A DNA stretch of 64,000 bases from an uncultured Flavobacterium sp. (GTDB taxonomy: Bacteria; Bacteroidota; Bacteroidia; Flavobacteriales; Flavobacteriaceae), in contig NZ_CAMLDD010000009.1 in the NCBI RefSeq assembly GCF_946478785.1, positions 124,001-188,000 of the forward strand, written 5' to 3'. A model generated the notes under the pieces. It had not been told where the DNA came from. It saw nothing but the letters and a program-made list of their open reading frames with translations, and did no database searches. This document shows positions 699 to 6,685 of the stretch, in pieces; the stretch's first letter is position 1; every line of letters begins with the position of its first letter. A program made the translations under genes and the position numbers.

Positions 699-748
699 AT
701 TAAAATAAATAAATTTTATATTACAAATATATATAAAATATTTTAAAT

Positions 749-824
749 TATTACATTTTTTGGTAATATACGACTATATTACGTTTATCGGTAATATTGT
801 AATTTATTACGATATTGAGTAATA
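749..824. promoter_or_regulatory. Three phased palindromes TATTAC-N8-GTAATA (candidate operator array)
   Basis: Perfect 6+6 inverted repeats with 8-bp spacers occur at 749-768, 777-796 and 805-824. Their left ends are exactly 28 bp apart. The spacers differ in sequence (ATTTTTTG, GTTTATCG, GATATTGA), so this is not a simple tandem duplication. A lone TATTAC half-site follows the same orientation at 719-724. The array fills the divergent intergenic region between satD and the HMG-CoA lyase gene. It is what a cooperative dimeric regulator would bind. SatD itself, which has a helix-turn-helix, is the closest candidate (inference). Confidence 0.75.
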
Positions 825-898: not shown

Positions 899-1765
899 TT
901 GAATAAAGAGATCAAGATTATCGAATGTCCCCGCGATGCCATGCAAGGTATCAAAACCTTTATTCCAACTAAAAATAAGGTTTCTTACATACAGGCTTTG
1001 CTTAGAGTGGGTTTTGATACAATAGATTTTGGAAGTTTTGTATCTCCTAAAGCGATTCCGCAGATGCAGGATACCGCTGAGGTTTTGGCTCAACTTGATT
1101 TGTCACAAACCACAAGCAAACTTTTATCCATTATAGCAAATACACAGGGGGCAGAAACAGCTTCGCAATATGAAGTAATTCGATATTTAGGATTTCCTTT
1201 TTCGATTTCTGAGAATTTCCAAATGCGAAATACACATAAAACCATTGCGCAGTCTTTAGTTACCCTTGAAGAGATTCTGGAAATCGCCGATAAAAAAAAC
1301 AAAGAAGTGGTTACCTATCTTTCTATGGGTTTCGGGAATCCGTATGGAGATCCATGGAATGTTGAAATCGTAGGTGAATGGACAGAAAAATTATCTGAAA
1401 TGGGGGTGAAAATCTTATCGCTTTCTGATACTGTTGGGAGCTCAACTCCCGAAGTGATTACCTATCTTTTCTCAAATTTAATTCCTAAATATCCTCAAAT
1501 AGAGTTTGGGGCGCACTTGCACACCACACCCAATAGCTGGTTCGAAAAAATTGATGCTGCACACAAAGCAGGCTGTACGCGTTTTGATGGTGCGATTCAG
1601 GGTTTTGGCGGCTGCCCAATGGCAACGGATAAATTAACCGGAAATATGCCTACAGAAAAACTAATCTCGTATTTTACAGCCAATAAAAAAACTACAGGTC
1701 TGAACTCTTTAAGTTTTGAAAGTGCTTATAATGAAGCCTCAAAATTATTTGGTAAATTCCACTAA
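899..1765 (+). CDS. Hydroxymethylglutaryl-CoA lyase
   Basis: 288 residues of the HMGL-like TIM barrel. It would cleave HMG-CoA to acetoacetate and acetyl-CoA in leucine degradation, in the cytoplasm. ECPRDAMQG (residues 9-17) carries the catalytic Arg-Asp pair. GAHLHTT holds the metal-binding His-x-His, and FGGCPMA near residue 240 carries the active-site Cys loop. The only in-frame start that keeps the Arg-Asp pair is TTG at 899; the first in-frame ATG (941) would delete it, and an in-frame stop lies at 827. The TTG also sits inside a TAGCTTTG sequence that resembles a -7 promoter, so the true start is unusually uncertain. Divergent from satD across the palindrome array. Confidence 0.88.
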   Translation: MNKEIKIIECPRDAMQGIKTFIPTKNKVSYIQALLRVGFDTIDFGSFVSPKAIPQMQDTAEVLAQLDLSQTTSKLLSIIANTQGAETASQYEVIRYLGFPFSISENFQMRNTHKTIAQSLVTLEEILEIADKKNKEVVTYLSMGFGNPYGDPWNVEIVGEWTEKLSEMGVKILSLSDTVGSSTPEVITYLFSNLIPKYPQIEFGAHLHTTPNSWFEKIDAAHKAGCTRFDGAIQGFGGCPMATDKLTGNMPTEKLISYFTANKKTTGLNSLSFESAYNEASKLFGKFH

Positions 1766-4175: not shown

Positions 4176-5648
4176 ATGATAGCACACAACTCCAAGATTA
4201 TCGGCGAAGGTTTAACTTACGATGATGTATTATTAGTACCTAACTACTCGAATGTGCTTCCCCGCGAAGTGAGTATCAAATCAAAATTCTCAAGAAACAT
4301 AACACTAAACGTTCCAATTGTATCTGCTGCTATGGATACTGTTACCGAAAGCGCAATGGCAATCGCTATGGCACAAGAAGGCGGAATTGGTGTTTTACAT
4401 AAAAACATGACCATCGAGCAACAAGCTGCAAAAGTTCGAAAAGTAAAACGTGCAGAGTCAGGAATGATTATCGATCCGGTTACATTACCAATGAATTCAA
4501 CGATTGCAGACGCAAAAGCTGCCATGAAAGAATTCGGAATTGGCGGGATTCCAATCGTTGACGAAAACAGAATCCTAAAAGGAATTGTTACAAATCGTGA
4601 TTTGCGTTTCGAAAAAAACGGAGCAAGACCAATCGTTGAGGTAATGACAAGTGAAAATTTAGTAACTGTTTCAGAAGGAACTTCATTAGAACAGGCCGAA
4701 GTAGTTTTACAAGGTCACAAAATCGAAAAATTACCGGTTATCAACGCTAATAATGAATTAGTTGGTTTAATCACTTTTAGAGATATCACCAAACTGACTC
4801 AAAAACCAATTGCAAACAAAGATGTTTTTGGACGTTTGAGAGTAGCTGCAGCCATTGGAGTTACAGGTGATGCTGTAGAAAGAGCAGGTGCATTAGTTGC
4901 TGCTGGTGTTGATGCCATCATTATCGATACGGCTCATGGTCATACGGAAGGTGTTGTAAATACATTGAAAGAAGTAAAAAGTAAGTTCCCTCAAATAGAT
5001 GTTATCGTTGGAAACATTGCTACTCCCGAAGCTGCTAAATATTTGGTAGAAAATGGTGCCGATGGAGTAAAAGTAGGAATCGGACCTGGTTCTATCTGTA
5101 CAACCCGTATTGTTGCAGGTGTTGGTTTTCCTCAGTTTTCAGCTGTTCTTGAAGTGGCTGCGGCTATCAGAGGAACAGGAGTTCCGGTTATCGCTGATGG
5201 CGGAATTCGTTATACAGGTGATATTCCTAAAGCTATCGCTGCAGGTGCCGACTGTGTAATGTTGGGTTCATTATTGGCAGGAACAAAAGAATCCCCGGGT
5301 GAAACTATTATTTTTGAAGGTAGAAAATTCAAATCATACCGCGGAATGGGTTCAGTTGAAGCAATGCAGACAGGTTCTAAAGACCGTTATTTCCAGGATG
5401 TTGAAGATGATGTAAAGAAATTAGTTCCGGAAGGAATTGTGGGGCGTGTTCCTTACAAAGGAGAATTAAACGAGAGTATGCTCCAGTTCATTGGAGGTCT
5501 TCGCGCCGGAATGGGTTACTGTGGTTCTAAAGATATTCCTACTTTACAGGAATCAGGGCGTTTTGTTAGAATTACGTCAAGCGGAATTACAGAGAGCCAT
5601 CCACACAACGTTACAATTACAAAAGAAGCTCCAAATTATTCAAGATAA
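4176..5648 (+). CDS. guaB: Inosine-5'-monophosphate dehydrogenase
   Basis: 490 residues, the normal full length. Catalyses NAD-dependent oxidation of IMP to XMP, the committed step to GMP, in the cytoplasm. [16 protein letters not shown] opens the barrel. Two CBS domains occupy about residues 95-205 ([26 protein letters not shown]). [11 protein letters not shown] carries the catalytic Cys, and [18 protein letters not shown] the phosphate-binding loop. YRGMGS and the C-terminal ESHPHNV are also typical. Start at ATG 4176 behind its own -7 element, and a strong terminator follows, so it is probably monocistronic. No purine riboswitch is visible. Confidence 0.97.
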
Positions 5649-5670
5649 TTTTTTGGGTTTTAATATATCG

Positions 5671-5705
5671 AAAAAGGCGTAAGAGGTTGATTCTTGCGCC
5701 TTTTC
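5671..5705 (+). terminator. guaB intrinsic terminator
   Basis: AAAAGGCGTAAGA pairs with TCTTGCGCCTTTT across a short loop with one G-U wobble. A-rich and T-rich ends make it usable in both directions. Confidence 0.8.
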
Positions 5706-5800
5706 ATTTACTTTATTTTGTCATTCCTTAGGAATCTCTAAGCACAAAGATTAGATTACCTGATTCTAAGGGAATAACGGATTTGCCTTAAATTTCTTAA

Positions 5801-6685
5801 TTAAAGTTTAGCCGTCATTTTTTCTGTTTCTCTTAATTTTTGATTTTCCAAAATCTCCTGAATAAATGGTTTTACCTGAGTTTCTATTTCGCTTTCAGAA
5901 ATATTTAATGCTTTCGGGTCATTTACCAATTCTAGCCAAGGTTTTGGTCCATCAAAAGGAAAATTTCCAAAAACAACTACGGGTGTTCCTTTTACTTTTA
6001 CATTTTCCTTGTCTTTTAAAATCCATTCGTCAGCAAATTTGTAAAGGTATTTAGCGTCTTTTTCTAATAAACGCAGACAGGAGTGCGAAGCTGGATAGCC
6101 TGGTAATTCATATTCATGAAAACCAACTCCCAATTTGTTTTCAATATTGAAGTTCCACTCTAATTCCCACTCGTCATTAAAAGTACTGGTCGTTTTTTCA
6201 GCTTTCCAGTTGGTGAAAAATAATCCCGTAGGAGTAGGGTCTTTTTTTCTTCCCATATTTGTTGGACCTGTATAAACCAATTCACCGTTTTCATAAGCAG
6301 CAAATGTTTGTGTTGGATAGGAAAATATGATGATTTTAGAAACTTCTTCTAATGCTGAAACATGCAATGGAAATGGAAGGTAGTAAACTAAATCTCCTGT
6401 AAAATCTTCAGGAACAATAATTGAGTCCATTTTAGCAAGATTTACTTTGTCAGTCCTGTTTATAGCATAGGCAATACTAAGCTTTGTTGAATCGCTATTA
6501 ATTGAATCAAGCCATTGTTTTGTTTTTTCAAAATGAAAACCTACAGATTTAGGTTTTTTATATTCAATTGTTTTACGTGTTTTTGTTTCTTCACCAGTTC
6601 TTGTCTTTTTGCTTTCATTACAAGAAACCAGTAGAGTTAGAATTAATAAAAGTAGAATATTTGATGTGTAATATAACTTTCTCAT
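5801..6685 (-). CDS. L,D-transpeptidase (YkuD family) lipoprotein
   Basis: 294 residues. The lipobox LLVSC places the acylated Cys at residue 22. The YkuD catalytic domain spans about 115-215, with the His-x9-Ser-His-Ser-Cys-x-Arg signature as GFHEYELPGYPASHSCLRL; Cys203 is the nucleophile. Enzymes of this type form 3-3 crosslinks in peptidoglycan or attach proteins to it, so this copy would act in the periplasm from a membrane anchor. Which membrane holds it cannot be told from sequence. Convergent with guaB; upstream spacing suggests a separate transcript. Confidence 0.9.
   Translation of the reverse strand: MRKLYYTSNILLLLILTLLVSCNESKKTRTGEETKTRKTIEYKKPKSVGFHFEKTKQWLDSINSDSTKLSIAYAINRTDKVNLAKMDSIIVPEDFTGDLVYYLPFPLHVSALEEVSKIIIFSYPTQTFAAYENGELVYTGPTNMGRKKDPTPTGLFFTNWKAEKTTSTFNDEWELEWNFNIENKLGVGFHEYELPGYPASHSCLRLLEKDAKYLYKFADEWILKDKENVKVKGTPVVVFGNFPFDGPKPWLELVNDPKALNISESEIETQVKPFIQEILENQKLRETEKMTAKL

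Follow-up and report, generated by a model that had tools for sequence, protein, structure and literature searches.

A tandem palindrome array upstream of satD and its covariation with the predicted recognition helix of SatD, a probable autoregulatory DNA-binding protein

The satD locus and its palindrome array

The stretch of DNA analyzed here, referred to throughout as the window, comprises 64,000 nt from an uncultured Flavobacterium sp. (assembly GCF_946478785.1, contig NZ_CAMLDD010000009.1, positions 124,001–188,000 of the forward strand). Near its left end, satD lies on the reverse strand (72–686) and encodes a palm (cyclase-like) domain (residues 1–120) together with two predicted helices of a helix-turn-helix (HTH) motif (residues 161–168 and 172–181). 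The satD stop codon is overlapped (ATGA) by the start of a DUF3307 membrane-protein gene on the same strand (1–75), which is clipped by the window edge and takes its family name from the gene at 5612–6325 of a related locus, L001. An HMG-CoA-lyase-like gene (899–1765, forward strand) is the divergent neighbor of satD and lies outside the conserved unit.

Ahead of satD stand three palindromes of the form TATTAC-N8-GTAATA. Counting from the lyase side, these are operator 1 (TATTACGATATTGAGTAATA, 805–824), which is the most distant from satD, operator 2 (TATTACGTTTATCGGTAATA, 777–796), and operator 3 (TATTACATTTTTTGGTAATA, 749–768). All three match the motif exactly and follow one another with a period of exactly 28 bp, and the same 28-bp array is found in Flavobacterium relatives. 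The initial annotation of this DNA had described three perfect palindromes at this spacing, and exact matching bears this out, as they are the only zero-mismatch copies in the 64-kb window. When up to two mismatches are allowed, the window contains nine matches against 5.9 expected. The score of the array exceeds that of all 40 of the window's own shuffles. A fourth, satD-proximal operator (719–740) is recognizable by comparison with relatives, with only its half-site TATTAC (719–724) intact. This half-site had also been noted at the outset, and it is indeed present, though it lies 30 bp rather than 28 bp from the next copy. Many relatives have a full operator at this place, and the spacer of the fourth operator in the window has two extra bases compared with theirs; the half-site is therefore best described as a worn copy that has gained two bases.

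With arms of 6 bp, the gap within each palindrome and the linker between palindromes are both 8 bp long, and half-sites of alternating polarity follow at 14-bp intervals. Three periods amount to 84 bp, which by simple arithmetic is eight turns at 10.5 bp per turn, a length that would fit a protein coat wrapped around the DNA better than one-sided binding. On the satD strand, the spacers in the window read TCAATATC, CGATAAAC, and CAAAAAAT. They had been called completely different, which is not accurate, as an A at operator positions 9 and 12 is common to all three. Across 63 Flavobacterium-type arrays, copies of the same array agree in 0.89 of pairs at spacer position 9, in 0.70 at positions 10 and 12, and in 0.27–0.56 at the remaining spacer and linker positions, while agreement at the arm positions is 0.79–1.00 of copy pairs, a figure that is somewhat inflated because the arms were picked by agreement. 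The spacers of these arrays (for example, 755–762 in the window) lean towards A on the satD strand, and inside them the dyad agreement is only 0.17–0.37, so the palindromes are polar inside.

Conservation of the array across relatives

Relatives were sought around G001, the genome that contains L001, whose family was taken to be Flavobacteriaceae. With the Pfam SatD profile (PF16264), SatD turns up in 55 of 199 family genomes and 65 of 296 phylum genomes, with relatives passing the cut-off of the profile in 40 of the 199 family genomes; the window protein as query finds it in 58 of 196 genomes of the order, and a 34-row alignment (A1) in 238 of 397 genomes of the family and 50 of 395 of the class, shares that are not comparable between queries because PF16264 overlooks many SatD proteins, that of G001 included. 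The dataset consisted of 309 entries (308 loci and the window), or 279 after removal of 30 duplicates. Three loci (L149, L152, and L164) yielded no SatD open reading frame.

A scan of contigs gave 61 Flavobacterium satD loci, one of which (L035) has a flank too short for the array scan. In 59 of the 60 scannable loci, 28 bp is the best period and none of 60 dinucleotide shuffles reaches the score, the exception being L053. The motif seen in the window is thus there ahead of satD in nearly all close relatives, as the initial annotation would lead one to expect.

We also scanned the full dataset without reference to the motif, looking for three copies with 6-bp arms at any period of 20–40 bp and any gap of 2–12 bp. 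This motif-blind scan chose a period of 28 bp in 230 of 278 loci and 29 bp in 32. All 40 of a locus's own dinucleotide shuffles were beaten in 247 of the 278 loci (216 at 28 bp, 30 at 29 bp, and one at 27 bp), while control segments taken 700–900 bp upstream beat their own shuffles in just 1 of 174 cases. Among core SatD loci, defined by an HMM score of at least 100, a significant 28- or 29-bp array is present in 222 of 249, and the 27 without a significant array include L053 (KR helix) and L175 (NQ helix). Both of these are Flavobacterium-type SatD genes. Remote PF16264 proteins, 29 loci in all with L082 and L110 counted among them, have significant arrays in 25 cases, 21 of which are at 29 bp. 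The remote SatD loci of the phylum (L137–L166) carry very different arms (TTAAACC.., GTTTCA.., TTGCA..), mostly with a 29-bp period. Three or four copies were counted in 206 of the 222 core arrays (139 and 67, respectively), by a caller that looks for three copies and under-counts shorter arrays.

In Flavobacterium loci, the array persists where the DNA past it on the lyase side has been swapped for other sequence. Among the loci compared, the geometry of the array is fixed and its tie is to satD, not to the lyase. In loci L018, L021, L024, L027, L030, L045, L047, and L058, a palindromic REP/MITE-like repeat (core ACTGCAGTGCGTCT) has inserted near the array, past its lyase-side end, and the array is still in place.

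SatD combines a predicted palm domain with an HTH

The SatD family (PF16264) is named after the sat operon of Streptococcus mutans. The window protein scores 27.5 bits against the Pfam profile, for which the cut-off is 29, and aligns to it over nearly its full length (residues 5–186 to profile positions 4–199 of 211); relatives that are 40–49% identical to the window protein pass the cut-off. A confident structure model shows a palm fold of the GGDEF/cyclase-like kind in the N-terminus. Residues D8 and D44 are invariant in all 34 sequences of A1 and are placed as in palms, and we take them to be the two metal-binding acidic positions of this fold. An HTH had been proposed for SatD from the window alone, and the proposal holds up: the profile HTH_24 matches with 22.1 bits against a cut-off of 21.9, and the model contains the two helices (residues 161–168 and 172–181). 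A sequence search of the PDB with SatD returned only MetJ, with an E-value of about 0.7, which we took as a chance match. Going by the modeled fold, the function of the palm is presumably to sense (or make) a nucleotide, which in turn would govern DNA binding.

Arm sequences covary with the predicted recognition helix

The arms of the palindromes differ by lineage, with TATTAC, TGTTAC, TATTAG/TATAAG, TATTCC, TATCTG/CGG/CGT, TATCAC/CAT, and TATATG as the main types. These types go together with the identity of residue 177 (window SatD numbering), which is the X in the ..VS-X.. stretch of the predicted recognition helix. Arginine at this position is found with TATTAC, or with TGTTAC when residues 171–172 are KR; glutamine with TATTAG or TATAAG in two helix backgrounds, QSAVSQR and QGNISQG; lysine mostly with TATTCC; glutamate with TATCTG, TATCGG, or TATCGT; glycine or aspartate mostly with TATCGT; asparagine, methionine, serine, and some threonines with TATCAC/TATCAT; and tyrosine and the other threonines with TATATG. 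Alanine occurs in four loci that have mixed arms. TGTTAC occupies most half-sites of seven loci (L046, L048, L049, L050, L051, L054, and L061), and exactly these seven, along with L053, have KR instead of NQ at residues 171–172, with NQ present in the 54 other Flavobacterium loci, window included. Registers were called with a preference for an outer T-(A/G)-T and without use of the protein sequence, so the apparent conservation of the outer bases is inflated.

The association was quantified with partial Mantel correlations in which N-domain distance was controlled, using 134 loci with N-terminal domains less than 80% identical, thinned from the 222 significant core loci. Arm bases 4–6 correlate with residue 177 at r = 0.616. 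The next columns are residue 173 (r = 0.253) and residue 191 (r = 0.217), the median over columns 1–150 is 0.034, and the maximum r reached for residue 177 in 200 permutations is 0.058. The best column for arm base 2 is residue 172 (r = 0.97), at a base that seldom varies and for which few loci are informative, and this residue probably reads that base. For arm base 6, residues 173 and 177 are the best columns, at 0.38 each. Arm distance itself correlates with N-domain distance at r = 0.28.

A second test used 99 path-disjoint pairs from the N-domain tree (199 loci after thinning) and 176 columns. The 21 pairs that differ at residue 177 have a median arm distance of 0.56, compared with 0.06 for the 78 pairs that agree (p = 6.8e-11), and residue 177 ranks first of the 176 columns, followed by residues 107 (5e-8) and 171 (3e-7). 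The pairs with different residues at 177 are also further apart in general (median N-domain distance 0.32 vs 0.21), a difference that the pair test leaves in place. Individual path-disjoint pairs illustrate the swaps: K/M goes with TATTCC/TATCAC in both L254/L289 and L266/L263, E/K with TATCTG/TATTCC in L325/L316, and G/R with TATCGT/TATTCC in L238/L183. When changes are counted branch by branch under parsimony, 17 joint changes are found against 7.3 expected with uniform placement and 11.5 with length-weighted placement (highest of 2000 draws, 20), and residue 177 is outranked by residue 174; the support for the link between residue 177 and the arms from the branches is moderate.

Residue 177 also has predictive value. 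When the arms were predicted from relatives with less than 50% N-domain identity (118 loci), residue 177 gave 0.55 of the bases right, compared with 0.29 for either a random or a nearest N-domain choice; below 60% identity (123 loci), the values are 0.62 from residue 177 and 0.54 from the nearest N-domain. As prediction is above the controls yet imperfect, the residue-to-base code is genuine, though incomplete. Exceptions include R at 177 with ATC-like arms in L119 and with TCC in L183, and K at 177 with CAC in L246, CGA in L250, and TAC in L301. These five loci and others depart from a one-residue rule, and the code is context-dependent.

The covariation is a feature of the aligned loci themselves, and it is from this that we infer binding. 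In the best explanation of these data, residue 177 would be the main reader of arm bases 4–6, and because it stands ahead of all scored columns for these bases, SatD very probably binds its own operator array. SatD had been put forward in the initial annotation as the first candidate to occupy the palindromes, and the covariation between its recognition helix and the arms gives strong sequence-based support to that choice.

Candidate promoter and neighboring genes

The -7 box of Bacteroidota promoters is given as TAnnTTTG in the available portions of two studies (PMC6847099, PMC9723704), the first of which places it at -12 to -5 (PMC6847099). On the satD strand of the window, TATATTTG at 724–731, within the fourth operator, matches this consensus and is a candidate -7 box of the satD promoter that would leave a leader of about 33 nt. 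A second TATATTTG, which also matches the consensus, lies near the satD ATG on the same strand (691–698). This second copy, 2–7 nt ahead of the ATG, is shared by almost all Flavobacterium loci; used as a -7 box, it would place the mRNA start at or inside the ATG, making the transcript leaderless or impossible.

Within 150 bp, TAnnTTTG is present in 159 of the 222 loci and absent from 63, at a frequency of 1.21 per locus on the satD strand, 0.07 on the opposite strand, and 0.15 in shuffles. Of 134 boxes placed in the frame of the array, 89 start at operator position 19, with TA forming the end of the operator and TTTG falling in the linker, and 22 start inside the operator spacer. The TATATTTG box falls inside the proximal operator in many Flavobacterium loci. 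The presence of these boxes on the satD strand, and mostly in one phase of the array, points to autoregulation, most likely repression, of satD-DUF3307.

Downstream, satD is followed by a co-directional DUF3307 gene in 168 of 169 core loci and in 19 of 28 remote loci; the count covers the 197 entries whose downstream sequence extends for 450 bp or more. Upstream, among significant arrays of period 28 at loci with the flank present, the lyase gene is found next to 62 of 62 Flavobacterium-type arrays vs 0 of 66 arrays of other types. Regulation of the lyase as a conserved function was rejected on this count. The array had at first been read as an element shared by satD and the lyase, and the lyase half of that reading is left unsupported, both by its absence next to the other array types and by the location of the -7 boxes on the satD strand.

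Proposed mechanism and alternatives

We consider it highly probable that SatD is an autoregulatory DNA-binding protein that lines up over the satD promoter at 28-bp intervals, one dimer per palindrome, and most likely represses satD-DUF3307. In this mechanism, a SatD dimer would bind each 20-bp palindrome, and dimers, usually three or four, would sit side by side every 28 bp across the promoter, where the assembled array would repress the satD-DUF3307 operon. The N-terminal nucleotide-cyclase-like palm would serve as the sensing or catalytic part, with a nucleotide setting DNA binding. Repression rather than activation, cooperativity between dimers, and the existence of a ligand are suggested by the position of the array and by the fold of the protein. 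Cooperative, nucleosome-like coverage, proposed in the initial annotation, may apply to these arrays, whose observed features are a regular spacing and usually three or four copies.

As the covariation speaks for contact and not for its sign, SatD might instead bind the array to activate its own promoter, or act there as a switch with both repressing and activating roles; where the -7 box falls within the satD-proximal operator or next to it, the remaining operators do sit upstream of the box. We regard this as unlikely, since the proximal operator itself holds the TATATTTG box in many Flavobacterium loci, and the 89 of 134 in-frame boxes that share the last two bases of an operator favor steric repression. 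It is also conceivable that the array mainly serves some purpose other than satD transcription, as a coat or a nucleation site (filament, centromere-like, or nucleosome-like), and the very regular lattice, in which gap and linker are both 8 bp, half-sites come at 14-bp steps, and 84 bp make eight turns, would fit such a role. However, the arrays are short (206 of 222 were counted at three or four copies), they contain satD-strand -7 boxes mostly in one phase, and in ten genomes exact sites are about as infrequent outside the satD array as control matches, making this explanation very improbable. That another regulator occupies the array, with residue 177 covarying through shared ancestry only, is hardly credible: SatD and its array are inherited together (r = 0.28 between arm and N-domain distance) and the branch test is only moderate, but residue 177 remains far above every other scored column when N-domain distance is controlled, ranks first in the path-disjoint pairs, and as Q goes with TATTAG/TATAAG arms in both the QSAVSQR and QGNISQG backgrounds.

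Autoregulatory repression by SatD, the reading we prefer, can be extended further. It is possible, if rather doubtful, that SatD is the first of a class of one-component regulators combining a nucleotide-cyclase-like catalytic palm with an HTH, the latter coating an operator lattice of fixed pitch, so that when the nucleotide is made or sensed the protein would release its own promoter and its DUF3307 membrane partner would be turned on.

Relation to known systems

MetJ, at its met boxes, and TrpR are autoregulatory repressors that act on head-to-tail palindromes over their own promoters, and MetJ is a ribbon-helix-helix protein that recognizes 8-bp boxes. The satD array is similar in that tandem palindromes, to which SatD would bind, cover its own promoter, and autoregulation from tandem operators is in itself of an already known kind. 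Unlike MetJ, SatD is predicted to use an HTH, and its sites are 20-bp palindromes at 28-bp intervals whose arms switch between lineages at constant geometry. Among known HTH types, those of sigma region 4 and of LuxR-type proteins may be close to that of SatD. The palm fold is that of GGDEF domains, class III adenylyl cyclases, and GTP cyclohydrolase III, whereas in SatD the modeled palm comes together with an HTH and is linked to an operator array. The combination of a palm-HTH regulator, a fixed lattice throughout the family, and a recognition code that switches is new to us.

In the available portions of two studies, SatD figures solely as a gene for acid tolerance or as an essential accessory gene (PMC10326533, PMC11323703), and it goes unmentioned in the available main text of a flavobacterial transcriptome study (PMC9723704). 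Our search of the openly licensed literature found no account of DNA binding by SatD, on tandem palindromes or otherwise. If SatD is viewed as a cyclase-like transcription factor, its operator is mapped, a candidate promoter and a partner gene are at hand, and a code relates its residues to the bases of its sites, which opens this uncharacterized family to immediate testing. The same lattice is kept across very distant relatives while the letters switch freely, which amounts to a natural recognition-code experiment, and the more than 200 natural protein/site pairs offer material for studying how specificity shifts at fixed geometry.

Occurrence of the motif elsewhere in the genomes

In ten whole Flavobacterium genomes, the exact motif TATTAC-N8-GTAATA occurs 51 times, 35 of them in the satD array. 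The 16 matches outside the array compare with 12 for a reversed-pattern control, so the genome-wide count suggested in the initial annotation finds the motif not spread beyond about the control level. A wider regulon reached through exact sites was rejected on the same numbers. In a second set of genomes, five with K at residue 177 have exact TATTCC sites in their satD arrays (1, 1, 1, 3, and 3 copies), and five others contain 0 or 1 such site. In the seven genomes of this second set that are not of the Flavobacterium type, exact TATTAC sites occur 0–2 times and without clustering. One site, TATTACTAGGTTTTGTAATA, recurs in three genomes (G002, G003, and G004), and lies within the start of a 147-residue open reading frame at L071 in G002 and at L066 in G003.
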